From a virus: DNA of 55,098 bases. Location of the stretch: IMG/VR virus record IMGVR_UViG_3300013119_000328, positions 1 through 55,098 of that record; one strand, given 5' to 3'. Of this stretch, positions 2,678 through 44,176 are shown piece by piece (the first letter of the stretch is position 1; every line of letters begins with the position of its first letter). The notes under the pieces were generated by a model, which saw only the letters and a list, made by a program, of their open reading frames with translations, searched no databases and was not told the DNA's origin. A program made the position numbers and the translations under genes.

Positions 2678-5560
2678 CTATACCACCTGCTGTCTTTGTT
2701 TCTTTTCCGCACTCACAACGATATCCAGATTCTCCTCTAAGACTCTCTGAATAGGAAGCATTCTTCCGCACTCTGTTCTGAACTTGTGATCCATAGTACA
2801 CTCTATGCTTCTCCCATCGTCAAGCGTGAAACGGAACACCTTCTTCGTTCCGTTGTTGTGGTTCTTCAACACAGGTACCAAAAGGTCGGCTCCCGTATTT
2901 TCGTCCCGAGATCTCACCAGGTCGCCCTCTGATACCTCACAGATGGGCAGGTCAGCAATCACTTCCCCACCACTACTATAAACAGTCACGAGTTCAGAAA
3001 AAGACAAACATTGATTGAAAGAGTAGCCCGAGAAGTAAATCATCTTTTGCCACAAGTCATCAAGTTGCGCCTGCTTGAACCCCTTCGCTAGTCCGCCCTT
3101 GTCGAACTTTCCTCGCAGAGCCTCCTTGACCTCTTGGGTCTTGCCTGTGCCCTTCTTCGTGAGAACCTTGCGGAGCATGTTGCCCTCGTCAAGTGTTAGT
3201 CCCTCGCCGATCTTGTGGGCTAGCATCGCTAACTGCTCTTGGAAAACCAACAACCCATAGGTGTCCCCAAGGACCTCCTTGATGATCGGGTGATCGTAGG
3301 TGACCTGCTTCGGGTTCTCCTTGTTGGCGACATAGAGTTTATGGACGTTTGCTGATAAAGGTCCGGGTCGGTAGATCGCTGTGATGGCGGCGAAGTCCTC
3401 AAGGGAGGTTGGTCGTGCCTCTTGGCAGAACTTCTGGGCTCCTCCGTTTGTCATCTGGAAGATGCCAGCCCACTTGCCTCTGTGGAAGATGCTCTTCCAG
3501 ACCTCTTCGTCGTTAAAATCTAGTACATCGGGGTGGAGGTTCTTGTTGTAGAAATCTCTTACTTGCCCGAATGATGGGTCGGGAATGTTGTGGTGGCGCT
3601 TTAGGATGTGGCGGATGGCTCCGCTGATCATGCGGAGAGTGGAGAGACCAAGGAGATCGAACTTGATGAAGCCGAGTGGTTCCAAGTGGCGAACGTTTTG
3701 ACCCTCTGCCCACGGGGCTTGGATTGTCCCGCCAGAGTTGATCAAGGGCATATGGCGGTCAAGGTTCTCCGTGACCAGCACACCTCCGGCGTGGCGGCTG
3801 GTGCTCCGGATGTTGCCGAAAAGGACATCAACGTGGGTGGCGATTTGTGGGTGCTTCTCGAAGAACGCTTGAAGCGACTCGCTGTACTCCTTCACCTCGC
3901 TGAACGTAGGGACATAGACGCCAGCCGTGATGCCGTGGGCTTTCTTGGCTTTTGGGGTCGCCTCGCCCATCATAGCGCCTGTGACCTTGTTGACCTCCAT
4001 AAACGGGACATCATAGAACTTGCCAAGGTCCTTGAGGAGCGATCGGAGTTGGAGCGTGTTGAAGTTACTGATGGGGACAACCGTTGTCTCACCCCAGTCG
4101 TCTTGGAGGGCTCGGACGAGATCCATTCTCGATTCGTAATCGCTATCGATGTCCGGGTACCCTGATCCGCCCTTCGTCAGGAACCTCTCGAACTGAAGGT
4201 TGTACTTGATTGGGTCAATCTGGGTGATGTTGAGGACATAGGCAAGGAGGGAGCCCCCCGCTGATCCTCGTCCGAGACCCACGAGCATCATGTCTTGGGC
4301 TTTGTCGTTGATGGCTTTCATCGTCAGGAAGTATTGAGAGAACCCTCGGGTGTCGATGATGTCGATCTCGTATTTGAGGCGCTCGACATACTCCTTGTCG
4401 GTGTGGAGTTCTTTCTCTTTTAGCCCGCTGATGGCTAGCTCCGTGAGGGCTTGGGTGGCTGTTTTGCCCTCGGGGATCACGAACTCTGGAAGGCGAACGG
4501 TGGCGTCTGGTAAAAAGTCCTCAATGCGATCATAGGCGATGTCATGAGTGCGAGTGATAGACGCCAAAACAAAGTCGTCGTCATACTCTACTTTGGACCG
4601 GGATGAGTACTTCTTGTAACTCTCCCACATTTGGTCGCCGTTCTTTGGGTAGAGTTCGTAGCCGATGTCCTCTACTGACTCCGGGAGAAGGTTGGCGTCC
4701 TCGCCCCACGCAGGGGCTTTGCCCGCCCAGCCGATGCGCTTATACATCTCTCGGTCTTTCCAGAGTTCAGGGCGAGGATAGTGGCTATCTGCCGTGCTGA
4801 TGACTTGGATGCCGAGTTCGATGCAGACTTGGATCACATAGTTGTTGAGTTCGTGTTGTTCCGGTACATCGTTCCACTGGACCTCCCCATAGAAGCGGTC
4901 GCCGAAGATGTCTTTGAAGCGGGTGGCGGTGGCTCGCATTGCCTCAAGGACGTGGTCGGGCGATTTATCCTTGTTACGCCACATGTCATTAGCTAAGACC
5001 CCGGAAAGGCAGGCACTTGAGACAATCAACCCCTCGTTGTACTCCTCAAGCATCTCGAAGTCCATACGAGGGTAGCGATAGAAGTTTTCGGGGCGATAAC
5101 TATCGCTTACTAACTGAAAAAGGTTGTTGAGCCCAACCTGATTCTGGGCGACGATGACGAGATGAGAGCGGTTGTTCAAGGGGTTAAACTTTCGTCTTCC
5201 CTTGTCCTCCTCCTCGACGACCATCTTGAACTCCTCCTTCTTTTGCTTCTTGGAGTTCGCCTGATGCTCGTCTCGCATCACTCGCCACTTCTTGTGGCTC
5301 GGGATGAAGTAGGTTTCACAGCCATAGATGGCTTTAAACTCTTTGCCGCCTTTCCTCATCTTTTTGAGGTGCTCTACTTGGTACGAGAGCCCGTTCATGT
5401 GTCCATGGTCGGTCATCGCTAATGCTCGCATTCCATTCTCGTGGGCAAACTCCATATGTTCTTTCGGCATTCCGAGTCCGTCAAAAGGAGACATCCCGCT
5501 GTGTGCGTGAAGTCCTACGAAGGGGATCGTGGAAGTGATGCGATCGGGCTTGGTCTGCAT
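2678..5560 (-). CDS. dnaE: DNA polymerase III alpha, N-terminal half with N-intein
   Basis: The larger part of a family C DNA polymerase. With the start at ATG 5560 (960 aa) it has an N-terminal PHP domain (HAHSGMSPF near residue 18, MTDHGHMNG near 50) and the polymerase core GLGRGSAGGS (about 428-437) and PDIDSD (469-474), the catalytic aspartates. The extein ends GYSFNQ at residue 850; residues 851-960 are an N-intein starting CLSFSE. I prefer ATG 5560 over an upstream in-frame ATG (5617) because AAGGAAGG lies just before it and the promoter at 5597-5625 lies inside the longer version. T4-type phages normally use a family B polymerase, so this is an unusual replisome. Confidence 0.96.
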   Translation of the reverse strand: MQTKPDRITSTIPFVGLHAHSGMSPFDGLGMPKEHMEFAHENGMRALAMTDHGHMNGLSYQVEHLKKMRKGGKEFKAIYGCETYFIPSHKKWRVMRDEHQANSKKQKKEEFKMVVEEEDKGRRKFNPLNNRSHLVIVAQNQVGLNNLFQLVSDSYRPENFYRYPRMDFEMLEEYNEGLIVSSACLSGVLANDMWRNKDKSPDHVLEAMRATATRFKDIFGDRFYGEVQWNDVPEQHELNNYVIQVCIELGIQVISTADSHYPRPELWKDREMYKRIGWAGKAPAWGEDANLLPESVEDIGYELYPKNGDQMWESYKKYSSRSKVEYDDDFVLASITRTHDIAYDRIEDFLPDATVRLPEFVIPEGKTATQALTELAISGLKEKELHTDKEYVERLKYEIDIIDTRGFSQYFLTMKAINDKAQDMMLVGLGRGSAGGSLLAYVLNITQIDPIKYNLQFERFLTKGGSGYPDIDSDYESRMDLVRALQDDWGETTVVPISNFNTLQLRSLLKDLGKFYDVPFMEVNKVTGAMMGEATPKAKKAHGITAGVYVPTFSEVKEYSESLQAFFEKHPQIATHVDVLFGNIRSTSRHAGGVLVTENLDRHMPLINSGGTIQAPWAEGQNVRHLEPLGFIKFDLLGLSTLRMISGAIRHILKRHHNIPDPSFGQVRDFYNKNLHPDVLDFNDEEVWKSIFHRGKWAGIFQMTNGGAQKFCQEARPTSLEDFAAITAIYRPGPLSANVHKLYVANKENPKQVTYDHPIIKEVLGDTYGLLVFQEQLAMLAHKIGEGLTLDEGNMLRKVLTKKGTGKTQEVKEALRGKFDKGGLAKGFKQAQLDDLWQKMIYFSGYSFNQCLSFSELVTVYSSGGEVIADLPICEVSEGDLVRSRDENTGADLLVPVLKNHNNGTKKVFRFTLDDGRSIECTMDHKFRTECGRMLPIQRVLEENLDIVVSAEKKQRQQVV
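2681..3010 (-). other. Split DnaE intein, N-terminal piece (110 aa)
   Basis: Begins with Cys (CLSFSELVTVYSS), the splicing nucleophile, and contains block B as IECTMDHKF (TxxH). It ends at a stop codon with no endonuclease domain. Insertion is between FNQ and SHS of the conserved FNKSHS motif. The familiar cyanobacterial DnaE split intein sits four residues earlier (before CFNKSHS). Confidence 0.93.
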
Positions 5561-5596
5561 AGGCGACCTTCCTTTGTTGTTCTCTAACTGTTCTTT

Positions 5597-5625
5597 ATTG
5601 TAAGCGAAGACCGCCATAAAGTCAA
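5597..5625 (-). promoter_or_regulatory. Promoter for the DnaE N-half
   Basis: TTGACT (5625-5620), 17-nt spacer, TACAAT (5602-5597) on the minus strand, about 37 nt before the chosen dnaE start. A copy of the dispersed motif (CGGGCAGAAAGAAAAAG) lies about 30 nt upstream, at the end of the preceding coding region. Confidence 0.65.
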
Positions 5626-8461: not shown

Positions 8462-8480
8462 TTTTTCTTGTTGCCCGATT
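8462..8480 (-). repeat. Copy of dispersed motif CGGGCAACAAAAAGAAA
   Basis: One of the clearest copies of a short motif (consensus about TCGGGCAACAAaAagAAA on the minus strand) found some 35-40 times, always in this orientation. Good copies also lie near 1442, 1561, 5657, 6575, 11374, 14118, 15408, 17091, 17786, 18712, 19546, 20341, 22175, 23012, 26450, 28874, 29488, 30042, 33968, 35057, 36524, 40154, 40190, 41858, 42808, 44185, 44924, 46182, 47985, 49547, 50882, 52336, 53858, 54472 and 54710. Many fall at gene ends or just upstream of promoters; others are inside coding sequence. Confidence 0.6.
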
Positions 8481-9162
8481 AAGTGATCTCACAACCGCCT
8501 GCTCCGCACGCTAGTGCTTCGGCTTGGACTGTGTTGTCTTCCATTTCGACGATGGCTTTGATGTCTACGCTGGTTAGGGTCTCCATCAAGGTGTCGTAGG
8601 TCTCCTTAGAGCAGTCGGTAAAGGGAGCCTGTTGGTAGGTGCCGCCGTCGAAGGGGAGGAGGGATAGACCTGTGTAGAACTCTCGGTTCTTCCACATCCA
8701 CTCTGCGAGGTCTTCCCACTCATTCTCACGCACACTTACGGTTGCTGAGACGTTGTTCTTGTTGGAACCCTTAGTGTGGCCTGGGAAGACCCAATCTTTG
8801 CTGACTTTCTTCACTCTCTCAAGGAAGCGGTAGGCGGATTCGCCTCGGGTGATGGCTCCCCCTGGGGCTCTCTGGGGGACCGAGATGACCGCCGTGTCAT
8901 GGGGGCGGAAATATTCATCTTCCACTAACTCAGGGTGGTAGGCGGCGAGATGCTGGTAGATCGCTTCGTTCTTGCCGACACGAATGCGACGGATGTAGTA
9001 CGGGGCGTGCCAAGCGTGGATGCCGGACGAGGTTCCCATAACGAGACTGGTCGTGTTGTGTACCACACAACCATTCCCCAGTTGATATGTGTGTGTTCCG
9101 TCAACTTCGAGATCGAGGGTCATTTGTTTCGCCTCACTCTTCTTGATGCTCTTAATTCTCAT
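8479..9162 (-). CDS. nrdJ: Class II ribonucleotide reductase, C-terminal part with C-intein
   Basis: The last 191 residues of an adenosylcobalamin-dependent ribonucleotide reductase, preceded by a 36-aa C-intein. The extein starts TTSLVMGTSSGIHAWHAPYY, the conserved block that follows VKPSG in this family. It ends with a redox Cys pair (ACGAGGCEIT) that in the family passes electrons from thioredoxin to the active site. ATG 9162 has AAAGGAG upstream. The partner is the gene at 9300-11339. The stop codon is followed at once by the CGGGCAACAAG motif. Confidence 0.94.
   Translation of the reverse strand: MRIKSIKKSEAKQMTLDLEVDGTHTYQLGNGCVVHNTTSLVMGTSSGIHAWHAPYYIRRIRVGKNEAIYQHLAAYHPELVEDEYFRPHDTAVISVPQRAPGGAITRGESAYRFLERVKKVSKDWVFPGHTKGSNKNNVSATVSVRENEWEDLAEWMWKNREFYTGLSLLPFDGGTYQQAPFTDCSKETYDTLMETLTSVDIKAIVEMEDNTVQAEALACGAGGCEIT
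9055..9162 (-). other. Split NrdJ intein, C-terminal piece (36 aa)
   Basis: Starts MRIKSIKKSEAKQM and ends THTYQLGNGCVVHN, matching blocks F (LDLEVDGTHTYQL) and G (VVHN). The terminal His-Asn is canonical, and the +1 extein residue is Thr. Confidence 0.93.
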
Positions 9163-9307
9163 TTTCGATTCTCCTTTTTAATTCCAATAACACTTTCTGC
9201 TTGTCCTCTTTGTAGTCTGCCTCTGGCACCCTTATCACTGTGTATCCTCTTTCCAACCAGAGAATATCCTTTTTGGCGAGCCAAAAGATAATCCTCTGCC
9301 TAATAAC
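9152..9307 (-). pseudogene. Remnant of an endonuclease gene between nrdJ halves
   Basis: A 51-codon open frame without a usual start codon overlaps the last codons of the N-half and runs to TAA 9154-9152 inside the C-half gene. It encodes KKDILWLERGYTVIRVPEAD and then YKEDKQKVLLELKRRIENEN. The GYxVIRVxEAD pattern followed by a charged helix resembles the C-terminal end of Vsr/EDxHD-type nucleases. I read it as the tail of a deleted homing endonuclease gene. The family match is from memory of the pattern, not a search. Confidence 0.55.
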
Positions 9308-11339
9308 TTAGGATATCATCGTCGAGGTCTAAATCCGCAGCTTTGACCCAGCCCCGATTCGTAGTCAAAAAGCGATGCTCCTTCGTTGCGGAAACAGTCG
9401 TGCCGTCGTCTAGCTCAATCTCATATGTGTCTGCTAACCCATTGACGAACAACTTGGTGATAAGCTCCTTCTCGTTTTTCTCGTTGTAAACGTATATCTT
9501 CTCATTCGCCGGCAAAAACTCTCCCGCCGACCGCTTGATGATAGACTCCGTGTACCCATTGGCATCAAAGATTGTTGATAGCTTGATGTTTCCGAGGTTG
9601 GTGCGAATTTCTGTGTCTGCGGATAGACAACCCGATGGCTTCACCGTAGTTAGGCGAGCGGCTGGGTTGGTGTTTAGCAACTCTGCTACTCGGGCGTTTT
9701 CAGCTTTGGCGACTTCTGCGGCTTTGGCGAGATCGATGTCCTCGCTCAGGACTGCTCCTGAGGCGATGCCCGTCATAGATACACCAACGAGGGCGTCCTT
9801 CTCTGTGTTTCGTTGCCACTTCGCTCGTAGGTAGTGGAAGTCGGTGTAGGATGCTTGAAGTGTGCCGATGAGGGTGGCTGCGGTGACTCTGGCTTCTAAG
9901 TCGGCTTGGTCTTCGATGTCTGAAACGTTGACTTCTACGAGATTGCAGAACTGCATTGAACGCAGGGCTATTTCTCCGCACGGGTTTGTCCCTAGCTCCT
10001 TATCGTTGCTCAGGACGATACCAGGTTCGCCAGCCCTGCTCATTTCGGTTCGCTTGAGAAGATTAAGGAAGAAGTCCTTTTCTATTTTGTGCCGCAAGAC
10101 CACTACTGAGTTGTTAGCACGACCTCGCTGGGGATTCGTCTCCCACCAGTTGCCGGCTTTGGCGGCGAGCATCTCCTCGTCGTCTGCATCAAAAAGGGCA
10201 ATCATAGCAGAGTTGTGAGATACAGACTCCAACCCCGTGGACGGATTCTTTGCCGTAAAGCAATGAACCTCATCAACCTCAATGTCATAAGTCTCCTCTG
10301 AACCGAAGTCTTCTACGTGCAAAATATCAACGAAATCGTACTTCTCTTTTGCAAAAGAATATCGGGTCGGGTCCTTAGAAATGTCGCTGGCGGTGGTCCA
10401 GATAATCTTCTCAGACTTCTTGTCCAACACCAGCCACCGATGGTTGGGTGTCGAAAGGTGATATCCCTCGGCAGTGGTAAGTTTTACGATATCCTGTTCG
10501 CCCTGCTCGAAGTTGTTCTTTACCTCATAATATCTCTCATTGTAATATACCGAGTCTCCTCTCGACATCTCTGATATCTCCTTGTATTGGTCCGGACCAA
10601 CACAGACTAAATAGTTGCTCGGCAGACATCTCCTAATTCCGCCAGCCAAAACTGCATCCGCAATGTGACACATAATATCATGGACCTCGATGGTCGTTAG
10701 TTTGGAACCGACGGGCTTGGACTCAAAAATGCCCTCGATCTTAACAAGGCACTCTCGGAGAGGTTGAGGTCCGGGCGCTTTGCCGCCAGAGGTGACCAAA
10801 AGGGCACCCTTCTCACGGATGTCGCTGTAATCGAATCGGATCTTGGAGCCACCAACATAGTACTGACGGACAAGGGCTTTGACCGAATCTGCCCAACCCT
10901 CGATACTGTCGCCGATGAGGAAACGGCGTGTGCGGTCGCTGTTCGGCTTTACGATCTCGGGCAGTTGTTCGGCGTGGTGGCTCTGGACGCTGTAACCCAC
11001 TCCGCAACCAGACAACAGGAGGAACATCGTCTCGTTGAAGGCTCGATAGTCGTCGATAGCGAGGAAGGCGCAGTTGAATAGGCGAGTTGGATTCACCTCG
11101 ATGGCTTTGCCTGCGAACTGCATCGAACGCATCGATGGGAGAACCTTCTTCGCTGATACGAGTTTGTAGGTGCTATTGATCTCATCTTTGAGTTCGGGGA
11201 ACTTCTTGATATGCATCGCCTTGTTGCGGGTGACCATCTCACCGAAGGTCTCCCTGCGATTCTTCTTGGGGAGATATTTTGCGTACTTCATGTATGTGGT
11301 GATGTCGGACAAAATGTCAACAGATAGATCTTTGCTCAT
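9300..11339 (-). CDS. nrdJ: Class II ribonucleotide reductase, N-terminal part with mini-intein and N-intein
   Basis: Reduces ribonucleotides to deoxyribonucleotides for phage DNA synthesis. The 679-aa precursor has RNR blocks RLFNCAFLAIDDYRAF (residues 87-102), a glycine-rich GCGVGYS, GRANNSV (406-412) and the active-site NPCGE (452-456). A contiguous mini-intein occupies residues 238-376 and an N-intein the last 109 residues. After cis- and trans-splicing the mature enzyme would be about 622 aa, fitting monomeric NrdJ-type enzymes. ATG 11339 follows AAAAAGGAG and lies just after the helicase stop, so it is in one operon with the helicase. Confidence 0.95.
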   Translation of the reverse strand: MSKDLSVDILSDITTYMKYAKYLPKKNRRETFGEMVTRNKAMHIKKFPELKDEINSTYKLVSAKKVLPSMRSMQFAGKAIEVNPTRLFNCAFLAIDDYRAFNETMFLLLSGCGVGYSVQSHHAEQLPEIVKPNSDRTRRFLIGDSIEGWADSVKALVRQYYVGGSKIRFDYSDIREKGALLVTSGGKAPGPQPLRECLVKIEGIFESKPVGSKLTTIEVHDIMCHIADAVLAGGIRRCLPSNYLVCVGPDQYKEISEMSRGDSVYYNERYYEVKNNFEQGEQDIVKLTTAEGYHLSTPNHRWLVLDKKSEKIIWTTASDISKDPTRYSFAKEKYDFVDILHVEDFGSEETYDIEVDEVHCFTAKNPSTGLESVSHNSAMIALFDADDEEMLAAKAGNWWETNPQRGRANNSVVVLRHKIEKDFFLNLLKRTEMSRAGEPGIVLSNDKELGTNPCGEIALRSMQFCNLVEVNVSDIEDQADLEARVTAATLIGTLQASYTDFHYLRAKWQRNTEKDALVGVSMTGIASGAVLSEDIDLAKAAEVAKAENARVAELLNTNPAARLTTVKPSGCLSADTEIRTNLGNIKLSTIFDANGYTESIIKRSAGEFLPANEKIYVYNEKNEKELITKLFVNGLADTYEIELDDGTTVSATKEHRFLTTNRGWVKAADLDLDDDILSY
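9303..9629 (-). other. Split NrdJ intein, N-terminal piece (109 aa)
   Basis: Starts CLSADTEIRT directly after the conserved TTVKPSG of the reductase. Block B is VSATKEHRFL (TxxH). It ends DLDDDILSY and a stop, so no endonuclease domain remains. The partner is the 36-aa piece at 9055-9162. Confidence 0.93.
10212..10628 (-). other. Contiguous mini-intein in NrdJ (139 aa)
   Basis: Inserted between GGIRR and SAMIALF of the reductase. Starts CLPSNYLVCVGPDQY, block B is LSTPNHRWL, block F is ETYDIEVDEVHCFTAKN and it ends ESVSHN followed by Ser. At 139 aa it has no room for an endonuclease domain. This is a second intein in the same protein, at a different site from the split one. Confidence 0.93.
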
Positions 11340-11340
11340 G

Positions 11341-13992
11341 CTATTGGTTCTCCTTTTTGTTGTGTTTTTCTGTTGCCGCAGAGTTGGCGGCGTGGGCGGC
11401 CTGCTCTTTGGCTAGGTTCTCTTTTTGGCGTTTGAGGTCCCTGATGAATTTCTTCTTCTCCCAAGCAGGCAGAGCGTCTAGCTCCTCCTTGGTTTGGGGT
11501 CCGTTGGCTAGGAGATCACTGAGAGAGCGGTGCTCCGGGGCTTTGCTCTTCTTTCTGCGTCTGTTGCCTGGGACTGACTCATCATTATAGGTCTTGTACT
11601 TCTTCTTGAGCCAGTCCTGTTGCTCTTGTTTCGTCTTGGCGACGACAGAGTCAATCCCGCCCGCTTCGCTGTCGGGGTGGTGGACCTCAAGTCTGACTCG
11701 ACTGGTGTCGATCGTCATCGGATAGACGATGCCGTCTGGTCCGTTGCGGTTCTTGGCTACGAACATACGACCCTTATCTTGTGCCTTGTCTTCGACGGTC
11801 CGACTGATGGAGCAGATGAGATCAGCGACGAAGCACTTGTTGAACGCTTCGCTGATGCTCTCCATCGTGATGACTTCGGCGTTTAGCCCGCTGCGATTTG
11901 TTTGAGAACAAGACCAACAGACCGCCTCATATTTCTGCGCAATGCCTCGCATCTCCTCGTAAATATCACCTAGATTGTGTCGCAACTCAGTCTTGTATCC
12001 GCCTTGTTGGCGAGGGCGCAACAAATCCCCATAGTCGATGATGATCATATCGGGTTCAATGCCTCGCTGACGTAGGCGATCTAGGTGGTTCTCGATGGTG
12101 CTCGTGGATGCTGACTTGGTGGGATACTCCTTGACGATGAGTTTGCCCGTGACCCCACGAACCTCTTCTTCGATCTTGTCCTTCATCGAATGGAGGTCTT
12201 GGAGCTGGACCTTCGTAAGGCAACTGTCGTAGCGGTTGCCGACAACCGTATCTGCGAGTTCCAACGTATAGTGGACGACCGTCTTTCCCTCCTTAAGTGC
12301 TTGGGTGCCGAGGTGGACCATGGCCATCGATTTGCCAGAGTTGTGCGTGACCGTAAAGTCGCCCATCAAATATAGATGATCTCCCGTCAACTCAAAACCA
12401 TAATAGTAGTCATCAGGTACCTGCTCGACACTAAACCCTGTGCGAAGAACATTCTTCTTCTGTTGTCGTTCAGAGCACTTCTTGCGCTCAATGCGTACCG
12501 GGATTTTGATACAATCCCCCGAAATAGACACACGATAATACTGTCCCTTGGTTCCGTGTTGGTCCGACTTTGTGCACTCGGTCACATATGCCGCCAAGCC
12601 AAGACTCCGAGAGAGGAATGCCACATCGTCCGCAAGTCCTTGTGATTTGGAAACAAAGTCGTATCCATAACCCTTAGAACAACTTCCGTCGGTGTCGATC
12701 AAACCAGCCAATACTGAGAGGCGATCTGCCTCTGGTGCGACCAAGTATCCCGAAGGCACCCGCTTGTTGTCCGACTTCTGCCCATAGATGCCGATTTCTC
12801 TCAGGAATGTTCCTAGTGGGTTTCTAGGTTGCCCCGGCGAAACAAGGGCAAGGTCTATCGTCGAACCTGTTTGTTTCTGATACTCTCGAATTGTCAGTCC
12901 AAAAATGTCTGCTACCCGACAAACCTCTTCTCTCAAAACCTCATCGTCGCTCGTAAAGCGAATATTATAATTAGAGGTGGATCCGTCTCCCAACATCAGT
13001 CCGACGAAATAAGGGTGGGAGACTTTCGACTGAGAGGCGAATGACTTTACACCTGTTCTGTAAAGTTTGTGAATGTGCCTGAATGTCTTACTTTTGGTAA
13101 GATATTCGTCGACAGTTAGATTCACAACCTTTCCGGCAAAGGAAGTCCCATCGGCAGTCCTCACCAAGGACAAGATGTGGCCACCGTTGACAACGAACGA
13201 CTCACCCTTCACAGGGGTGATTCGGTACATCCTGTCCCGACCCCGAGCCAAGGTCTTTACGGCCCTTGGAAGCGAATCCGGACCCATCAATTCATCTCCT
13301 TTTCGGATATCTTCCACCGCTACTCTTTTTCCATCTGACATCATCACTAGCGTGCCTCGCTCATGGCAACCAGTTGGAGCGACGATGATTCCTAATTCCT
13401 TCTTACCTAGTCCGCCACGAGTAATGTCATCAATCTCGTCCCAGCCAGTAGAGATCGGGTCTCTATCGTGAATCGTGTAGCGATCCTCGAAGTCCTCAAT
13501 GAAGTCATGTCCGTAGTTGTTGTCTAGACCAAGCTTCATCGCCTGCTCAATAACCCCCTGGATCTCCTCGAAGGATGAGGTTTGTAGCAACTCTACCGAC
13601 TTGAGAATGGCGTCCTTGAGTTTCTGCTTCTTGCAAAAGTCAAGGGACTTCTCTCGAACGTACTCGCCGTCCTCGGCGTTGACGTCGCCCGTCTTGATCC
13701 GTGCTAAAAAGTCAATCATCTGCTTCTTGATGATGTCGCTTGCTTCGTCCAGCTCTGAGCGGATGATGGACGACACAATCACCTGCGTCGGGTGGACCTC
13801 ATACTTCTTCTTGTAGTCGAAGATGAGTTCAACGAAGGTGCGGATGTAGCGCAACTCCAAATAGTTGACTTCCAGGACCTCGATCATCTGGTTCGCAAAT
13901 GGGCGGTCTTCTAGGATGTTATATGCTAATTTCTCTTGGAACGCTTTACCGAATTTGGCAAATGTGATCTGTTCGTTCTTCTTCTTGGTCAA
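11341..13992 (-). CDS. DnaB-like replicative helicase with LAGLIDADG intein
   Basis: Unwinds DNA at the phage replication fork (RecA-fold, DnaB/T4 gp41 type). The 883-aa precursor has an N-terminal helical domain (1-170), then STGWDEIDDITRGGLGKKEL and a Walker A loop formed by APTG (205-208) and SGKS only after removal of a 343-aa intein. Walker B is PDMIIIDYGD; later motifs include CWSCSQTNR. The mature protein is about 540 aa with a charged C-terminal tail. The start appears to be TTG 13992, preceded by GGAAG; I see no better ATG. The gene is transcribed from the promoter at 14072-14100 and continues into nrdJ. Confidence 0.93.
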   Translation of the reverse strand: MTKKKNEQITFAKFGKAFQEKLAYNILEDRPFANQMIEVLEVNYLELRYIRTFVELIFDYKKKYEVHPTQVIVSSIIRSELDEASDIIKKQMIDFLARIKTGDVNAEDGEYVREKSLDFCKKQKLKDAILKSVELLQTSSFEEIQGVIEQAMKLGLDNNYGHDFIEDFEDRYTIHDRDPISTGWDEIDDITRGGLGKKELGIIVAPTGCHERGTLVMMSDGKRVAVEDIRKGDELMGPDSLPRAVKTLARGRDRMYRITPVKGESFVVNGGHILSLVRTADGTSFAGKVVNLTVDEYLTKSKTFRHIHKLYRTGVKSFASQSKVSHPYFVGLMLGDGSTSNYNIRFTSDDEVLREEVCRVADIFGLTIREYQKQTGSTIDLALVSPGQPRNPLGTFLREIGIYGQKSDNKRVPSGYLVAPEADRLSVLAGLIDTDGSCSKGYGYDFVSKSQGLADDVAFLSRSLGLAAYVTECTKSDQHGTKGQYYRVSISGDCIKIPVRIERKKCSERQQKKNVLRTGFSVEQVPDDYYYGFELTGDHLYLMGDFTVTHNSGKSMAMVHLGTQALKEGKTVVHYTLELADTVVGNRYDSCLTKVQLQDLHSMKDKIEEEVRGVTGKLIVKEYPTKSASTSTIENHLDRLRQRGIEPDMIIIDYGDLLRPRQQGGYKTELRHNLGDIYEEMRGIAQKYEAVCWSCSQTNRSGLNAEVITMESISEAFNKCFVADLICSISRTVEDKAQDKGRMFVAKNRNGPDGIVYPMTIDTSRVRLEVHHPDSEAGGIDSVVAKTKQEQQDWLKKKYKTYNDESVPGNRRRKKSKAPEHRSLSDLLANGPQTKEELDALPAWEKKKFIRDLKRQKENLAKEQAAHAANSAATEKHNKKENQ
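12340..13368 (-). other. Intein with LAGLIDADG endonuclease in the helicase P-loop (343 aa)
   Basis: Starts CHERGTLVMMSDGKRV and ends DFTVTHN before SGKS, cutting Walker A between Gly and Ser. Block B is FVVNGGHILSL. The two endonuclease helices are recognisable as FVGLMLGDGS (about 121-130) and LAGLIDTDGS (about 220-229), both keeping the catalytic Asp. It is the only full-size intein in the window, so it may still home. Confidence 0.95.
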
Positions 13993-14952: not shown

Positions 14953-15341
14953 CAAAAGTCCATCGTTCCTGTGCCGTGCTCTGTTGTAAAAACCGCTCGG
15001 CGTAATCCGTGTTTGTTGATAATCTCTTGGCATTTAACACAAGGACAACTCATTCCGGGAAGGTCGTTCCTCCCCTTTCTCGCTACATAGATCGTCGCCC
15101 CCTGGAGGCGACTCTTGTCCTTCACTCGCCAAATGGCGTCCATCTCTGCGTGAACTGAACGAGTGAAATCCGCTTCGCTCGACTTGGGGTGGGTCTTGTA
15201 TCTGTTCCTCCCCACGGAGATCACATTTCCGCCCTTCACTATCACCGCTACATGGCGATGGAGGAGGCTCTTGCTATACTCGTTCGTGTCTATCTTCCGC
15301 AGGGCAAATGCTAGGAACTTATTTCGCTTCCTCTTTGTCAT
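14952..15341 (-). CDS. dCMP/cytidine deaminase-like protein
   Basis: A 129-aa zinc-dependent deaminase. The zinc ligands are visible as HAEMDAI (about residue 63) and CPCVKC (about 98-103), with the catalytic Glu in HAE. Phage enzymes of this type convert dCMP to dUMP to feed dTMP synthesis, which fits the neighbouring nucleotide and replication genes; the exact substrate (dCMP or cytidine) is not certain. A helix-rich N-terminus precedes RHVAVIVKGGNVISVGRN. Confidence 0.87.
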   Translation of the reverse strand: MTKRKRNKFLAFALRKIDTNEYSKSLLHRHVAVIVKGGNVISVGRNRYKTHPKSSEADFTRSVHAEMDAIWRVKDKSRLQGATIYVARKGRNDLPGMSCPCVKCQEIINKHGLRRAVFTTEHGTGTMDF

Positions 15342-15361
15342 CTCGCCCTACCTTCTTACCT

Positions 15362-15389
15362 ATTCTACACTCATCTTCCAAAATGTCAA
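15362..15389 (-). promoter_or_regulatory. Promoter for the deaminase-exonuclease operon
   Basis: TTGACA (15389-15384), 16-nt spacer, TAGAAT (15367-15362) on the minus strand, about 20 nt before ATG 15341. It overlaps the stop codon of the UvsX C-half. The CGGGCAGATGAAGAAAAG element precedes it. Confidence 0.7.
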
Positions 15390-16618
15390 GAACTCTTTTC
15401 TTCATCTGCCCGCTGAGTGGTTTGATCGAGAATCTCTAACACTCGCTCTTTGAACTTGTCCTCTGTCAACATTTTGAGCCAACTGCCTGCCTGGAACTTC
15501 TTGGACTTCGTGCCATCAGCATATTCTAACTCCTTCCAAGTCGTCCCATGAATGTACTGAGAGTCCTTAACTGCTTCCAGCCAACTTTCCTCATCTTGAA
15601 TCCCAACCCTGTCGCCGCCCCACAAAATCTTAAACATCGCTTTGCGACCTTGGGTGCCTCCTCGTGATTTCTCGATCTTAGCCGAGACAGATGAACCGAT
15701 GCGCTCGCCCCGGTCATTCTCAACAAAAGATGCTCTTGCTTTGCGTCCCGTCAACCAGATACGAAGAGTGTATGCATAAGTTAGCGCCTTGCCTCCCGGT
15801 GTAAAGTACGGAGTCACAAGCGCCTCTGCTGGGGTCTTGGGGATATTAATGCGTAGTTGGTTGATAATCATTAAGGTGTGTTGCTTTGCGTTGAGTGGGT
15901 TAATCAGCTTTTGGAGTCCGGCACCAATTACTTTGGGTTTACGGAGCATCCCGCCAGCATTGGGGTTGAGTTTTTCGGACTCTAAATCCGATTCACAGGG
16001 AGTAAAGGCTAAACTGTCCCAGATGAATAAGATCTGCTTATCAGTGGAGTCAATAATAGTATCGATAGTATCAAAGACAAACTCACAGGAGGTTGCTGGA
16101 ATGTAAAGGAAGTTTTCCAAATTGACGCCGGAACGCTCTAGAAACTGCGCATCCAGAGCCGACTCTGAGTCAAAATAGACAACATCAATTCCCTTCTTCT
16201 GTGCGTTGACGGCAACCTGCACTGCCATATAACTCTTTCCGGTGTTGTGGTTCAGGATGCCGTTGCCGTAATAACATGCCTCAGGGTGTTTGACTGTGAT
16301 GTCAACAATTTGCTTCGCACCTACCTGGCTGACCTGGCTGACTTCATGGTATTCGCCATCATCACAAAGTAGTCTTGTTGAGCCGACGACGAGTTCGCTA
16401 GTGCGGACCCACCCTTCTGATGCGAAGAACCTATGTTCCGCTGTGACTTCGATCCGGCGCTCATTTGCTAGAACCACCTCGTGTGCCGGCAACAGCCCCT
16501 TGTCGATGTAGTCGACGATCTCCGTGTACTCCCCCGACAAAGTCTTAACCCGTACCTTGTGTCCGGCATTGAGCAACTCTTTGACCTCTGCGATTCTGAT
16601 CTTCTTCTTCATACCCAC
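15386..16618 (-). CDS. uvsX: UvsX/RecA recombinase, C-terminal part with large C-intein
   Basis: Carries most of a RecA-fold strand-exchange protein. Residues 1-125 are intein; the extein begins TGKSYMAVQVAVNA, the end of the Walker A loop. It continues with VVYFDSESALDAQFLER, ILFIWDSLAFTP (Walker B), MIINQLRINI (L2-like) and TPGGKALTYAYTLRIWL. Joined to the 65-residue N-extein it would be about 350 aa, the usual UvsX size. The start is GTG 16618 (AAAGG 8 nt upstream) or ATG 16612. The promoter at 16658-16685 would express this half independently of the N-half. Confidence 0.94.
   Translation of the reverse strand: MGMKKKIRIAEVKELLNAGHKVRVKTLSGEYTEIVDYIDKGLLPAHEVVLANERRIEVTAEHRFFASEGWVRTSELVVGSTRLLCDDGEYHEVSQVSQVGAKQIVDITVKHPEACYYGNGILNHNTGKSYMAVQVAVNAQKKGIDVVYFDSESALDAQFLERSGVNLENFLYIPATSCEFVFDTIDTIIDSTDKQILFIWDSLAFTPCESDLESEKLNPNAGGMLRKPKVIGAGLQKLINPLNAKQHTLMIINQLRINIPKTPAEALVTPYFTPGGKALTYAYTLRIWLTGRKARASFVENDRGERIGSSVSAKIEKSRGGTQGRKAMFKILWGGDRVGIQDEESWLEAVKDSQYIHGTTWKELEYADGTKSKKFQAGSWLKMLTEDKFKERVLEILDQTTQRADEEKSS
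16244..16618 (-). other. Atypically split UvsX intein, large C-terminal piece (125 aa)
   Basis: Contains block B (RRIEVTAEHRFF), which normally belongs to the N-piece, plus F and G (IVDITVKHPEACYYGNG, then ILNHN). The terminal His-Asn is canonical and the +1 residue is Thr. Because block B is on this side, the break lies near the very N-terminus of the intein, unlike the DnaE and NrdJ split inteins. Confidence 0.92.
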
Positions 16619-16824
16619 TTTAACAACCTTTCATATTCTGTGCTGTTCATTGGTTCTATTGTACCTGATTCTATCAACTTGTCAAGTGTTTCTTTGTCAT
16701 ACTTCGGAAAACTAAAATCCTCCTCTGTCACGACTGTGAACTTCAAGCCCCATTGCTCACAAAACGATCGGGCGGCGGCGAACCTTGCTTTGTTTTCTCG
16801 TGTATCAAGTAGGCGGCCTATCAG
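16609..16824 (-). pseudogene. Open frame between uvsX halves, probable endonuclease remnant
   Basis: Directly after the TGA of the N-half the same frame is open for 71 codons, ending at a TGA (16611-16609) that overlaps the C-half ATG. It has no early start codon. It encodes ENKARFAAARSFCEQWGLKF and TVVTEEDFSFPKYD. This resembles the C-terminal part of TnsA-like or other PD-(D/E)XK nucleases (helix, then FxVVTExD). I read it as the tail of a former endonuclease gene that sat inside the broken intein; the identity is an inference. Confidence 0.5.
16658..16685 (-). promoter_or_regulatory. Promoter driving the UvsX C-half
   Basis: TTGACA (16685-16680), 16-nt spacer, TACAAT (16663-16658) on the minus strand, about 40 nt before the GTG start. 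It is one of the best -35/-10 pairs in the window and lies within the remnant frame between the two uvsX halves. Confidence 0.7.
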
Positions 16825-17061
16825 TCAATCCACTTCCACCTCGATAAGGGTGTCGTCTGAAACGCAGGCTTCAAGCCCCGCCACCTCACATATTTTGCCT
16901 ACTGGAATACCAGCTCGTTGCCCCTGTTTGATGATGTTGTCTAACCACCTTGAACCAGTGGGGATCCAATCTGACACCGTTGATGGGTCATTCTCGTCCA
17001 TACGGTAGGCAACTTGGGCTCGCTTGTTCAGCATCTTTTTAAGGTCATCGATGTTGGACAT
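16825..17061 (-). CDS. uvsX: UvsX/RecA recombinase, N-terminal part with 13-residue N-intein
   Basis: Only 78 aa. Residues 1-65 are the UvsX N-terminus (WIPTGSRWLDNIIKQG, then IPVGKICEVAGLEA, the first half of Walker A). Residues 66-78 (CVSDDTLIEVEVD) are the N-intein. The recombinase cannot bind ATP until the two chains are spliced, since the P-loop itself is interrupted (GLEA/TGKS). ATG 17061 is preceded by AAGGAG. The CGGGCAACAAGAAATAAAA motif lies just upstream. Confidence 0.93.
   Translation of the reverse strand: MSNIDDLKKMLNKRAQVAYRMDENDPSTVSDWIPTGSRWLDNIIKQGQRAGIPVGKICEVAGLEACVSDDTLIEVEVD
16828..16866 (-). other. Atypically split UvsX intein, 13-residue N-piece
   Basis: CVSDDTLIEVEVD: Cys1 nucleophile and block A only, then a stop codon. 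Natural inteins broken this close to the N-terminus are known but rare (for example metagenomic examples in UvsX and terminase genes). The partner is the 125-aa piece at 16244-16618. Confidence 0.88.
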
Positions 17062-17108
17062 GTTTATCTCCTTATTGTTTTATTTCTTGTTGCCCGCTAA
17101 TGAGGTTA

Positions 17109-17252
17109 TCAAACGGGCTTTCGTTTGGTCTTGCGACAGCATGAGCAGTGGGAACTGATGCCCTCGCAAGATCGGCAACTAACTGCTCCGCAATTTCCAC
17201 AGCGATAAATGACCTCTCGTGCCTTGCATGATGCGCATTTTCCGTATGCCAT
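17109..17252 (-). CDS. 47-aa Cys-rich zinc-ribbon-like protein
   Basis: MAYGKCASCKAREVIYRCGN followed by CGAVSCRSCEG and HCSCCRKTKRKPV: ten cysteines in 47 residues, mostly as CxxC-type pairs, so probably a zinc-binding protein with a basic tail. ATG 17252 has a strong AAAAGGAG upstream. A longer frame in another phase (17072-17302) covers the same bases but is not credible. It lies between the lipoprotein and uvsX genes. Function unknown. Confidence 0.75.
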   Translation of the reverse strand: MAYGKCASCKAREVIYRCGNCGAVSCRSCEGISSHCSCCRKTKRKPV

Positions 17253-17273
17253 AATTCTTCTCCTTTTGTCTTG

Positions 17274-17762
17274 TTATTTGTTAGTTTCTTTATCGTTAAC
17301 ATAGCGACACTTGAGGATGGCGATGCCTTGTCCCCTCAGCGGCTTGCGGGAATACACACCAATCGTGCCCATCTTGTGGAGAGGTTTGTTGGTGCCGTCA
17401 TTTTTGCAGATGCCCAAATCGTAGAAGATGCGGTTCTTCATGATTTCACAACTCAGACCCCGCGTCTCTTCGTTGCCTTCGCGGGTAATCTTGTCGACAC
17501 CGCACCCCTCAGCACCCACACCCTGCAAGTCGAAGAGGTATGGACCGTCGTTGAGGACGGTGTGGTGCCACTTTTTCGGAACATCTTCCCCTTCCGATTG
17601 GGAGAGCACCCACTCAATACGGCGTCTCTTCTTCGAAGGACCAGCATCAACGGTTAGGGGTACCCCAGCGTCAATACCAGCGTCAATACCAGCGTCAAGT
17701 GCGATTGGTGCTTTCGAAGTGCAACCCGTCAGAAGCGCAAGCGCTAGACCCAACTTCTTCAT
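17274..17762 (-). CDS. Predicted lipoprotein with DAG repeats
   Basis: A 162-aa secreted protein. The N-terminus (MKKLGLALALLTGC) is a lipoprotein signal peptide with lipobox LLTGC, so Cys14 would be lipidated. The mature part begins with a linker DAGIDAGIDAG...VDAG encoded by 12-bp tandem repeats, then a Cys-containing domain. Asp-Ala-Gly linkers of this kind are typical of Myxococcota and related bacteria. In a phage such a protein might act in superinfection exclusion or lysis, but nothing in the sequence decides this. Confidence 0.8.
   Translation of the reverse strand: MKKLGLALALLTGCTSKAPIALDAGIDAGIDAGVPLTVDAGPSKKRRRIEWVLSQSEGEDVPKKWHHTVLNDGPYLFDLQGVGAEGCGVDKITREGNEETRGLSCEIMKNRIFYDLGICKNDGTNKPLHKMGTIGVYSRKPLRGQGIAILKCRYVNDKETNK
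17665..17699 (-). repeat. 12-bp tandem repeat in the lipoprotein gene
   Basis: Nearly three copies of a 12-bp unit (ccagcgtcaata on the plus strand) encode the DAGIDAGIDAG linker. Copy number could vary by slippage without breaking the frame. Confidence 0.8.
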
Positions 17763-36426: not shown

Positions 36427-37920
36427 TTAGTCTATCTCCATCATAAAGATGTTTGAGCCACAGCCGTAAACCTTTCTTACTCCTGCTTCTTCTGCTACTT
36501 GTTTTTCTGTTTTTCCTTTTTGTGCCCGATAATTGAAGCGGTTGTGGCGGACTTTGCCGTCTGTGTACCAATAGTCGAGTTGAGTGGTGCCCTTGTGGGT
36601 GAAACCTGACTTCTCGTAGACTGCGCCCGTGCCGAAGCGAAGATCGGCGTAGGTGAGGATGTTTTGGTAGCTTTGTTCCTTTGCCCACACAAGCGCCCTT
36701 GATAGGAGGCGAGTGAAGCCACCGACGACGATAGTATCGGTCTTTGTGGCGAGGCGGGCGATCTCTATCGCAGCGGCGTCACGATATTTCTTGTGGGCTG
36801 GAGTGCGGAGAGACAAGGCGGTGACGAGGGTGCCTTCATGATATAGCCCAAAGGTGATCTTGGATTTTGTGTTGCCGGAAATGTGATTGGATGCGAAAAA
36901 GTCCCTTGACTGAACTCGGGGGACGATGGCGACTTCACACTTTCTCGCAAATAGACGATTATCGACCTTGTTTGCTCGCTGGCGGATCATCGACTCAACG
37001 ATGGGGCGCTTTTCTGCCCACTCGTCCGAAAAAATGTGGAACAACCTGATGTCGCTTGCTGAACAGGCTTCTGTCTTCTCCTTGTGGTACCCTTTTCCCT
37101 TCCTGTCCTCTGTATGCCAGTAAAGTCCGTTGTACTCTATCGCTAAACGTGACTCGGGGACATAAATGTCCAACTCCCTCGGCCCGATCACCGATCTCGT
37201 GTTGTGCTCCACCTTCTCAAACAAGGTTTCTGTGAAACTTCTCACCTCTCGCTCCTCCAAGGACGCTGGGGTGCAAGTTCGACAAACTGCATGGTTGTGC
37301 AACATAAACCAAGATCGTTTCTCGATAGTTCCACACTCTACACAGCGGGCGTCCATTAGGACATGTTGATTTTCGTAATCTTCATATTTATTGAGTATCT
37401 CATAGCGGGTGACTAACTCGTCTGAACCCTCTGCAAAACGCTCACTCGTCAGTCCCTTATTGCTGTTTCTCCACTCTTCTAGCCCACGAAGAGTTGCCTC
37501 GTGGAGTGAGCGACCATACCAAGGGTTTCCCGCTCCCGTCATTCTCTTGGCGTGGGCGGCGACTGAAGGGGAGTTTTCCTTAGTTAGCCCCTTGCGCCAT
37601 GAGGCGCTTGGTCCTGTGTCGGAGCCAAATCCATAGAGGCGGGCAAATTCAGATTTAGATTGGGCTACATGTTTCTCGCAATATCTTCTAAATGAATAGT
37701 CCCCTCTGACGTATCTTGTGTCCTCGCCACACTCCTTGCAGGGTGGTCTGGTGCCCCCAAAATAGTGCTTTATGAGATATTCATCCATCTTCATTTTGTG
37801 CTTTGCTCCGATGTGCCCCGCGAAGGACGCCTTCGTGGCACACTGCTTGCCGCACTCTCTACAGAGCATTATCTCTTTGTCTGTCGCTTCGGGGCGGTGG
37901 TTCATCCTGTTCTTCTTCAT
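36427..37920 (-). CDS. Vsr/EDxHD-type homing endonuclease with zinc fingers
   Basis: A 497-aa free-standing endonuclease. The N-terminal third carries zinc modules: a C2H2 finger (CRECGKQCATKASFAGHIGA...), CKECGEDTRYV, and CVECGTIEKRSWF with VCRTC. The nuclease core is EEREVRSFTETLF, RELDIYVPESRLAIEYNGLY and WHTE (about residues 228-270), as in I-Bth0305I-like enzymes. A C-terminal domain (about 325-470) with FFASNHISGN, VVGGFTRLLSRAL and YADLRFGTGAVYEKSGF resembles a GNAT-like fold. It has its own promoter and ribosome site and sits between capsid and neck genes. Confidence 0.88.
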   Translation of the reverse strand: MKKNRMNHRPEATDKEIMLCRECGKQCATKASFAGHIGAKHKMKMDEYLIKHYFGGTRPPCKECGEDTRYVRGDYSFRRYCEKHVAQSKSEFARLYGFGSDTGPSASWRKGLTKENSPSVAAHAKRMTGAGNPWYGRSLHEATLRGLEEWRNSNKGLTSERFAEGSDELVTRYEILNKYEDYENQHVLMDARCVECGTIEKRSWFMLHNHAVCRTCTPASLEEREVRSFTETLFEKVEHNTRSVIGPRELDIYVPESRLAIEYNGLYWHTEDRKGKGYHKEKTEACSASDIRLFHIFSDEWAEKRPIVESMIRQRANKVDNRLFARKCEVAIVPRVQSRDFFASNHISGNTKSKITFGLYHEGTLVTALSLRTPAHKKYRDAAAIEIARLATKTDTIVVGGFTRLLSRALVWAKEQSYQNILTYADLRFGTGAVYEKSGFTHKGTTQLDYWYTDGKVRHNRFNYRAQKGKTEKQVAEEAGVRKVYGCGSNIFMMEID

Positions 37921-41712: not shown

Positions 41713-42096
41713 TTAGCCTTTCTTTAGCCTGTTTGAGATTGTTCCCCAGTTTCCTAAACCGGGCATGTTTGAAATATCGACGCCTGCGTCGCTTGCTCCA
41801 TCATCCAGGGGTGTTGTTCCCTCGAAGAGGTGGGCGTTTGGTAGTTTTGTTTTTGTTGCCGCATTAGCGTAGGGGTCTGGTTGGGATCCCATCATGGCTT
41901 GGCGGAGTTTGGCTCTGACAGCCTCTCTGTCGGATGCCTGCGCCTGTACTGCTGGGGCTTGGGACTCTGCGACGACACGAGTCGTTGCTCCTAAACCTTG
42001 GGCGACCTCGGTGACGATTGAGCGTAGTGCCCCTTCCTCGAAAATGACTTCCTTTACGCACTCCTTGATGAGTGACTTAAGTTCTGATTTCTTCAT
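41713..42096 (-). CDS. Conserved head-region protein, unknown
   Basis: A 127-aa protein starting MKKSELKSLIKECVKEVIFE, an amphipathic helical start seen in many small proteins of T4-like marine phages. The C-terminal half is Gly/Asp-rich (DDGASDAGVDISNMPGLGNW). ATG 42096 overlaps the stop of the homing endonuclease as ATGA. Function unknown. Confidence 0.65.
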   Translation of the reverse strand: MKKSELKSLIKECVKEVIFEEGALRSIVTEVAQGLGATTRVVAESQAPAVQAQASDREAVRAKLRQAMMGSQPDPYANAATKTKLPNAHLFEGTTPLDDGASDAGVDISNMPGLGNWGTISNRLKKG

Positions 42097-43586
42097 CCCG
42101 CCTCTTTCTCTTTGGGTGTGTTCTCTAACTCGTAATAGATGTTGCCACAGTTCCAAATCCTGTCGTAACCGTTCATCAACATGTTCTCTAATTCCGTCTT
42201 TGCGCCATCATAAATAGGCAACAACTTCTTTAAACGGCGCTTCATAAACTTTTGACGACTGTGGACCTGACGATAGTCCTTCGAAACATACTGGTATCCT
42301 ACTGCTGTTTCCCTGACACGAGAGAACCCTAGACGCTCATAAGTGCCGCCGCTAAAGGTTGCCTTGTCACAATAGGAAACCAACTTTCTAGATGTGGACC
42401 CTCGTAAATAGTGGACCAAAAGCCTCCGAGAGCCGCCGACTATCGTACACCCCGCCCTAGAACATAAACGAATCAACTCATCAGTATCTTCCTCAAACCT
42501 AGATGAACCAAAGGACGCCATCATTATCAACTCGCCGCAATACTCTAGTCCATAATGCTTAGATGCTGCCGCGAAACCCTGGAGGTGGTTAGAATCATAA
42601 AACTCTCTCGCTGTCGACGAGTTGGGACGCACCACACTGCACTCTCTGGCGGTCACCCTCTTCTCCACCTTGCCGAGCCTTGAAGCGATGATGTTCTTGA
42701 TGATGGCTTGCTTGTCACGCCAATCATGTTCCCACACATAAAGTACATCTATCCCCAAAGAGTTATAGTACTCTTGTTTCTGTTTGTGGTATTGTTTATC
42801 TTTGTTGCCGGCAAATTCAGAGTGCCAATAAGTTCCATTGAACTCTATCCCTAGGGACTCAGTCGGCAGGTAGATGTCTAGTTCATGCCCCCCGTCTCTA
42901 TGGTGGCGCTCGATCTCGAACCCCAAGGTTACAACATAGTCCGCAAGTTGCTGCTCGCCAAGAGAAGTACCCACGCGAGGTTTGCACCGACGACACTGGA
43001 TACATTCTGCTGCCTCTGATGTCTTGTTCAGAGATCTCTCGAAAGTCTCCTTACACTCCAGACATCTAAACTTGCCTTTCTGCAAGTTTATCGATAAGCT
43101 GTGGTCTGGTGACGAAATCAACTCAAGATTCTCACGTACACACAACGCCCGAAGCCTTGCTCCAAATAGTTTCCTGCTGCGATCAGCACGCAATGATGGA
43201 GAACTCATTGTGTTTTTGGCTCCATACCTCGAAACCATAGTTGCTGATGCTTTCTCTTGTACCTGTTTGTTCCCAAAAGGAGATTTTGAGCCGTATCGCT
43301 CTATGTTTGTTTCAGCAATCTTTTTGAGTACGGCAGGAGAGTGCATCTGGTGACGTACCCCATAGGTTTCTTCGAGTGTATCTCCTTTGCGCCGCTTTAC
43401 ACAACCCTTGTCCGGGCACCTACGACCAAGGTCAATCAGATTCTTCTTGTTGGTCCAAAAGAGTGTGCCACAAGTCACATGCTCTATCTCGAACTTGGTC
43501 CGATTATTTACATACTTAAAATCTGCTGCGAGCACATACTCTTCTGTTTCGTTTGTGAATTGACGGATTTGCTGCTCAGGCGACAT
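42093..43586 (-). CDS. Vsr/EDxHD-type homing endonuclease with repeat and zinc modules
   Basis: A 497-aa free-standing endonuclease of the same family as that at 36427-37920. N-terminal zinc-like motifs (TCGTLFWTNKKNLI with CPDKGC) and two RYG repeats (ETNIERYGSKSPFGNKQ; MVSRYGAKNTMSS) are DNA-binding modules. A second zinc cluster (CLECKETF, CIQCRRC) precedes the core LGEQQLADYVVTLGFE, HELDIYLPTESLGIEFNGTY and WHSE. The C-terminal part (VVRPNSSTAREFYDSNHLQG, IVGGSRRLLVHYL) matches the C-terminal domain of the other enzyme. ATG 43586 overlaps the protease stop (TGATG) and the end overlaps the next start (ATGA), so it is perfectly nested in the operon. Confidence 0.87.
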   Translation of the reverse strand: MSPEQQIRQFTNETEEYVLAADFKYVNNRTKFEIEHVTCGTLFWTNKKNLIDLGRRCPDKGCVKRRKGDTLEETYGVRHQMHSPAVLKKIAETNIERYGSKSPFGNKQVQEKASATMVSRYGAKNTMSSPSLRADRSRKLFGARLRALCVRENLELISSPDHSLSINLQKGKFRCLECKETFERSLNKTSEAAECIQCRRCKPRVGTSLGEQQLADYVVTLGFEIERHHRDGGHELDIYLPTESLGIEFNGTYWHSEFAGNKDKQYHKQKQEYYNSLGIDVLYVWEHDWRDKQAIIKNIIASRLGKVEKRVTARECSVVRPNSSTAREFYDSNHLQGFAAASKHYGLEYCGELIMMASFGSSRFEEDTDELIRLCSRAGCTIVGGSRRLLVHYLRGSTSRKLVSYCDKATFSGGTYERLGFSRVRETAVGYQYVSKDYRQVHSRQKFMKRRLKKLLPIYDGAKTELENMLMNGYDRIWNCGNIYYELENTPKEKEAG

Positions 43587-44176
43587 CAATCCTCCAAAAT
43601 GTCGTTTAGGGCTCGGTTGATTCGATCTGCTTTGGTGAGATTAGTTCTCACTTGGCTCTCGGCGACAAGGTAGGCTCCCGTGGTGCTTGGCTCACTCACC
43701 AAGTCAAAGCATAGTAGTTGGAAGTCATCTTCGACCATGGTTACTCCGTTGGCTTGGCGGGTACTTCCTAGACCACGACTGGATATGCCGAGTTGGACGC
43801 CACCCTGTACGAGGTTCTTGGCGATCTTGCCTGCGGGAGTGTCGAGGATCTTCATCTTGCCCATGACATCGTCGCCGTCCCACCACACTTCGGTTACGAG
43901 ATGGCTGGCGTTCTTGAGTTCCACTACTGAACTATCAGGGTGGTCTAGTTCGCCGATGGCTCGCCCCTCCTTGACTAGTTTCTCGTAGTTCTTCATCTCA
44001 CGCTCTAAAATAGGACGGGGGTAGATGCGACCGTTGCCGTTCTTGGCGTTGGCTGCTTGGATCTTGCCAGCTACGATGAGATGGGTACCCTCCTTGTTTC
44101 CAGCACGCTCTTCCTCCGTGAGGAGGCTGTCGCTGTAATCCAAATTCATAAACTCTTCTAATACATACTTTTTCAT
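43586..44176 (-). CDS. gp21: Prohead core protease, gp21-like
   Basis: A 196-aa serine protease that cleaves scaffold and capsid during head maturation. The catalytic His is in AIGELDHPDSS (about residue 94) and the Ser in GISSRGLGS (about 152), with GNGRIYPRPILEREMKNYEK before them, as in herpesvirus-like phage prohead proteases. It overlaps the homing endonuclease gene by one base. Confidence 0.9.
   Translation of the reverse strand: MKKYVLEEFMNLDYSDSLLTEEERAGNKEGTHLIVAGKIQAANAKNGNGRIYPRPILEREMKNYEKLVKEGRAIGELDHPDSSVVELKNASHLVTEVWWDGDDVMGKMKILDTPAGKIAKNLVQGGVQLGISSRGLGSTRQANGVTMVEDDFQLLCFDLVSEPSTTGAYLVAESQVRTNLTKADRINRALNDILED

Follow-up and report, generated by a model that had tools for sequence, protein, structure and literature searches.

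The S1 break position of split inteins, right after β-strand 2, has been described for VidaL and PolB16, and natural short N-inteins span 15-37 amino acids (aa) (PMC13014065). The PolB16 OarG split intein has a 15-aa N-intein and has been called the shortest characterised (PMC10189870). Here we analyse the 55,098 nucleotides (nt) of IMG/VR virus record IMGVR_UViG_3300013119_000328 (the window, meaning this whole stretch), in which a uvsX recombinase gene is broken by an intein with an even shorter N-piece. The window is a 55-kb fragment of a T4-like myovirus, and its terminase is closest to those of Flavobacterium phage immuto and Microcystis phage Mel-JY01. We propose, with high confidence, that the Walker A loop of a T4-like UvsX is interrupted here by a class 1 intein, naturally split at S1, and that a TnsA-like endonuclease gene, now decayed, formerly occupied the break.

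The two half-genes of uvsX are separate open reading frames (ORFs) on the minus strand (Table 1), and an AAGGAG ribosome-binding site precedes the N-half. The original prediction, made from the DNA letters alone, described a recombinase cut inside Walker A between GLEA and TGKS, with a tiny N-half gene, an N-intein of only 13 residues and block B on the C-piece. All of this is seen in the ORFs: the 13 codons counted from Cys1 are directly followed by a TGA stop at 16825-16827, and TAEH lies in the C-intein. Both halves match UvsX-like recombinases in PHROGs (E 2.7e-5 for the N-half; phrog_97, E 2e-32, for the C-half), and the C-extein matches Pfam RecA with an E value of 2.5e-18. Once the intein residues (13 + 123) are taken out, the joined exteins read GLEATGKS, a complete standard Walker A, and the intein-free relative in Microcystis phage Mel-JY01 has GLEQSGKS at the corresponding place. 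Judged by its sequence, namely the Walker A after joining and the RecA core, the locus is a UvsX/RecA recombinase. As predicted from the split of the P-loop, neither half alone should be able to bind ATP. For the C-half, a GTG at 16618 is also in frame; the ATG at 16612 forms an ATGA overlap with the upstream stop, likewise in relatives.

Table 1. Features of the split uvsX locus, in window positions.
Feature	Position	Strand	Details
uvsX N-half gene	16825-17061	-	78 aa: 65-aa N-extein ending EVAGLEA, then 13-aa N-intein
N-intein CVSDDTLIEVEVD	16828-16866	-	13 codons, block A; Cys1 is codon 66 of the N-half ORF
3' remnant of TnsA-like PD-(D/E)xK endonuclease gene	16609-16824	-	71 codons and stop
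sigma70-like promoter match, TTGACA-16-TACAAT	16658-16685	-	11/12; inside the remnant, 45 nt upstream of ATG 16612
uvsX C-half gene	15386-16612	-	408 aa; start ATG 16612
C-intein	16244-16612	-	123 aa; ends GILNHN before TGKS; block B TAEH, block F VDITVKH, terminal HN
uvsX C-extein, TGKS to stop	15386-16243	-	rest of RecA core

The residues of a class 1 intein are complete, comprising C1, TAEH (57-60), D104, H109, H122-N123 and Thr+1. Residues H60, D104, H109, H122 and N123 are invariant across seven aligned sequences, and Cys1 is present in all N-pieces. The C-intein matches Pfam Intein_splicing with an E value of 5.5e-6, below the family cut-off, and the VidaL intein in the PDB with 7e-7. 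The latter match shows that the split intein is not due to chance, as does its recurrence in eight other viral loci, where break, site and N-piece length are the same. Alignment of the two window pieces, placed end to end, against the fused (cis) intein of a relative, L026, covers 136 residues without a gap, of which 67 are identical (49%). An AlphaFold2 model of the L026 intein, made with 20 aligned sequences, has a predicted local distance difference test score (pLDDT) of 92.5 and finds VidaL (6vgv) as its best PDB match, with a template modelling (TM) score of 0.87 and 1.9 Å. The model of this cis relative thus points to the horseshoe Hint fold for the class 1 intein. Its first two strands comprise residues 12-16 and 20-24, and the 13-aa piece ends at the equivalent of residue 18, placing the break in the turn. 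With separate ORFs, a break at the turn from the first to the second β-strand and recurrence of that break in relatives, the intein is a naturally and atypically split S1 intein. T4-like phages are generally known for group I/II introns and for translational bypass, and no result of this analysis supports bridging of the present break by either. Against both stands the complete Hint domain formed by the 136 residues beside the break. No Rfam match was found in 15300-17400 at E up to 1, and an RNA intron was rejected on that ground. We consider a bridge by RNA or by bypass, in place of protein splicing, extremely improbable.

Relatives were gathered by alignment-based scans of viral contigs; a search with the single C-half sequence gave one spurious contig (L002), and no relatives of the C-half were found in bacterial and archaeal genomes. 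The window and eight independent IMG/VR loci form a split clade of nine members with identical break and site, all broken at GLE/GWE-X with Cys1 next. The N-intein has 13 residues in the window, L025, L027, L039, L041 and L042, and 14 residues in L022, L023 and L024. The window piece CVSDDTLIEVEVD aligns to CVTEDTLIEVIIE (ending at a stop) and similar pieces in the eight split loci, and to the cis inteins of L026 and L037. The comparison with metagenomic UvsX split inteins that the original prediction had proposed returned the same break. Its statement that breaks this near the N-terminus are rare was upheld as to rarity, but such a break was already known from the VidaL UvsX intein, which has its break at this site too, following a 16-residue N-piece. 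Fused inteins with no endonuclease at the site are found in L026 and L037/L038. The cis relatives L026 and L037, sharing the site, would fit a continuous intein interrupted by an assembly or sequencing error at 16825-16827, the objection that the original prediction had raised against itself. However, the eight independent contigs stop at the same place, the frame past the stop reads an endonuclease tail and not an intein, and the C-half lies in a different ORF, 213 nt further on. The objection thus fell, and we regard such an error as having almost no chance of being real.

The 213-nt gap between the N-half stop and the C-half is a decayed endonuclease gene, which the original prediction missed. 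Five relatives (L023, L024, L025, L027 and L041) have an intact endonuclease gene of about 360-430 aa between the halves. A hidden Markov model (HMM) of 362 positions, built from these five, matches a single place in the whole window, the spacer at 16612-16824 (-), with an E value of 3e-9 over model positions 295-357. The match starts shortly after the catalytic lysine (L025 position 290); therefore the remnant has neither catalytic core nor start, and the endonuclease of the window is clearly dead. The remnant also matches Pfam TnsA_N (1.4e-3) and phrog_218 (2.2e-4). The intact endonucleases share an NPQTGxxNPMYGKSP motif and an invariant PD...EIKP (PD 278-279, E-I-K 288-290; five sequences). 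Pfam TnsA_N or phage endonuclease I is matched by four of the five (in L023, TnsA_N at 6e-6, above the cut-off), the L025 protein matches endonuclease and head-closure families in PHROGs, and a fold search places TnsA (1t0f) first, weakly, with E 0.01 and probability 1.00. The spacer gene of the relatives is thus a TnsA-like PD-(D/E)xK nuclease, the fold match to TnsA being weak. In addition to the window, three loci keep tails only: L022 (positions 318-362), L042 (340-361) and L039 (about 335-360). The 5' part is gone in all four decayed members, and the kept 3' end overlaps or abuts the C-half start. The locus therefore has the arrangement of a fractured gene, with a free-standing endonuclease between the halves, intact in five relatives and present in the window as a 3' remnant. 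From this gene position, the intact endonuclease may have a homing role, cutting intein-free uvsX alleles. More distant endonuclease matches (L049-L054) have no recognised split genes adjoining them. An AT-rich element like CCTGATATTTATNTTATA is common to L023, L025, L027 and L041, in the 20-45 nt spacer from the N-half stop to the endonuclease start.

The 71 codons past the stop are open and in frame with the N-half, a chance of about 0.03, as they would be if the TGA (context TGA-C) were read through to give an N-precursor with a 72-residue tail. However, this tail is already accounted for as the endonuclease remnant. The frame between N-half and endonuclease varies in the relatives and their stops are TAA or TGA, so that readthrough is not conserved; we consider it very unlikely.

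The same uvsX gene carries a second atypically split intein in L026 (4800-6834), L039, L041 and L042. Its 15-aa N-piece is seen as GDK(W/Y) or GDAS, then CVDPxTTKIKIRYK(V/P/I) and a stop; it has a DUF559/VSR-like endonuclease of its own, and its C-intein ends LNHN before TTSGGKA, as seen in L026.

The original prediction gave the C-half a strong promoter of its own. This holds as a consensus match (11/12), which lies inside the remnant and which none of 300 shuffles equalled. The remnant of L022 holds a perfect TTGACA-17-TATAAT. Conservation of the promoter in the 3' end of the intact endonucleases was looked for and mostly not found, with L041 alone among these members showing a partial match seldom reached by shuffles (15-nt spacer, P 0.04). 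The promoter therefore belongs to the window and L022, and matches in other members are partial. In the window phage, an 11/12 match also lies 41 nt ahead of the DnaE C-half, and these matches suggest that orphaned C-halves may have promoters of their own.

Based on the known chemistry of class 1 inteins, we propose the following course for the window. The N-precursor would consist of the 65-aa extein and the 13-aa N-intein, about one β-strand, and the C-precursor of the 123-aa C-intein and the rest of UvsX. Upon docking of the 13-residue strand on the C-intein, the Hint fold would be completed. Cys1 would then undergo the N-S shift, the N-extein would pass to Thr+1, and cyclisation of Asn123 would free UvsX with the whole P-loop GLEA-TGKS. 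Since each half has only part of Walker A, ATP-dependent recombination should need splicing. The reason for a break at this point would be a free-standing TnsA-like endonuclease gene formerly situated between the halves, where relatives keep theirs. The intact endonuclease presumably cuts intein-free uvsX at the conserved loop, and both the endonuclease and the intein halves would then be copied in by recombination. In the window phage, the endonuclease would have been lost by deletion, leaving the last ~70 codons, and mobility would be gone. Both the stop/start overlap with the C-half and, probably, a promoter for it lie in these codons.

Several observations weigh against a working split intein with a decayed endonuclease. 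The N-piece of 13 residues is below the published natural minimum. The residue at -1 is Ala in the window and Gly or Ser in most of the clade, L039 also having Ala. The endonuclease tail of L039 is weak, with an E value of 9e-4 in a search of that spacer alone. Trans-splicing of the window halves, expected from their sequence, is something we infer. The window intein also lies on a long branch in the C-intein tree (1.12 changes per column), so that some loss of function is possible. This long branch and the death of the endonuclease would also fit a split gene that is itself dead, with intein and recombinase decaying while another recombinase serves the phage, and a second recombinase is possible because the record is a 55-kb fragment. 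Against such decay, both ORFs are intact, all splicing residues are present, Walker A is restored on joining, and the RecA core is strongly matched. We therefore consider a dead gene improbable, and keep to a split intein whose endonuclease has decayed.

The kind of intein, an S1 split intein in UvsX, is already known, because VidaL is one. As far as the literature compared shows, the new elements are the 13-residue N-piece (2 below the published 15), a whole clade with it, the presence of a TnsA-like endonuclease at the break, and a series of intact, tail and fused states; priority is uncertain, the original VidaL and fractured-gene reports lying outside the comparison. A natural N-intein of 13 residues would be the shortest known and useful for semi-synthetic protein labelling. 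At one and the same site, the loci show a single process in different states (intact endonuclease between the two halves, tail, fused), so that ideas on how atypically split inteins arose can be tested. The places where endonuclease genes settled, and not a special property of the intein, may be what break sites mark, an idea supported by two apparently unrelated nuclease families occupying the same turn. We offer, tentatively and as the less probable case, the joint reading of a working split-intein clade with the shortest natural N-pieces (13), TnsA-like and VSR-like families that settled independently in the same turn, and the 3' end of a dead endonuclease kept as the promoter and coupling element of the orphaned C-half. 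This last part is drawn from the tails in all four decayed members and the near-perfect promoter matches in two.

Other inteins and mobile genes were also observed. The window encodes a DnaE (DNA polymerase III alpha) with a canonical split intein (1567-2556 + 2678-5617 (-); C-intein about 37 aa, LTSN then SHSVAYG) and a ribonucleotide reductase with another (8479-9162 + 9300-11339 (-); VVHN then TTSLVMG). Their spacers, 2557-2677 and 9163-9299 (-), hold open frames that run over the C-half start codons, as expected of endonuclease tails, but neither spacer gave a significant match to any family. A DnaB-like helicase gene (11341-13992 (-)) contains a cis intein with a LAGLIDADG endonuclease (Pfam PF05203, PF14528). 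With UvsX, the 55-kb record therefore holds four inteins, three of them split. Two large genes at 36427-37920 and 42093-43589 (-), with Mom-like and MTES_1575 (VSR-like nuclease) domains, are probably further mobile endonuclease-type genes. At another locus (L005, LR756500.1, 1650-4924), the Walker A loop of a PhoH-like P-loop ATPase is likewise interrupted by an atypical split intein, at TGKAG, then CLYPDEKIKIYKMK...; the N-piece has 28 aa, and the endonuclease is VSR-like.

The fractured genes that Dassa and colleagues reportedly described in 2009 consist of an N-half, an endonuclease gene and a C-half, with canonical breaks and a VSR-like (EDxHD) endonuclease. The window clade has the same arrangement, with an S1 break and a TnsA-like nuclease instead. 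TnsA, the T4 gp4 head-closure protein and phage endonuclease I are the PD-(D/E)xK nucleases matched by the remnant and its intact relatives, whereas the endonucleases of the relatives are longer, at 360-430 aa, have an N-terminal helical region and an NPMYGKSPG (NUMOD3-like) motif, and lie between intein halves. The AceL TerL and GOS TerL atypical split inteins also have natural short N-inteins, but are broken at S2, after the first helix, in another host gene. PolB16 OarG is, like the window intein, naturally split at S1 after β-strand 2, whereas its host is a PolB polymerase, it is cysteine-less (Ser1/Ser+1) and its N-piece has 15 residues compared with 13. VidaL (PDB 6vgv/6vgw) shares with the window the UvsX host gene, the Walker A site, the S1 break and Cys1. 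Its natural locus is L017 (100% over 137 residues of 6vgv), in which UvsX is split at the same site with the N-piece CLPKEAVVQIRLTKKG, and a fused version of the VidaL-type intein is found in Salicola phage SCTP-2 gp204. In Pseudomonas phage PA5oct (L003, NC_071039.1, 1257-4263), one split UvsX has its N-half in gp276, with a 17-aa N-piece, its endonuclease in gp275 and its C-half in gp274, a reading that is absent from the annotation of the record. The VidaL-type endonucleases between the halves (L016, L017) are VSR-like (MTES_1575 weakly, phrog_22677), and the TnsA-like HMM gave no significant match to them, no similarity being detected. VidaL differs further in its 16-residue N-piece, Ser+1, block B CAFNH (T/S-x-x-H in the window clade) and junctions, with GESG-Cys1 and SHN-SGKS in VidaL loci compared with GLEA-Cys1 and NHN-TGKS in the window. 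At 29% identity between the two inteins, and with the clades separated in the C-intein tree with 100/100 support, the window intein lies outside the VidaL sequence clade, in a sister clade of its own.
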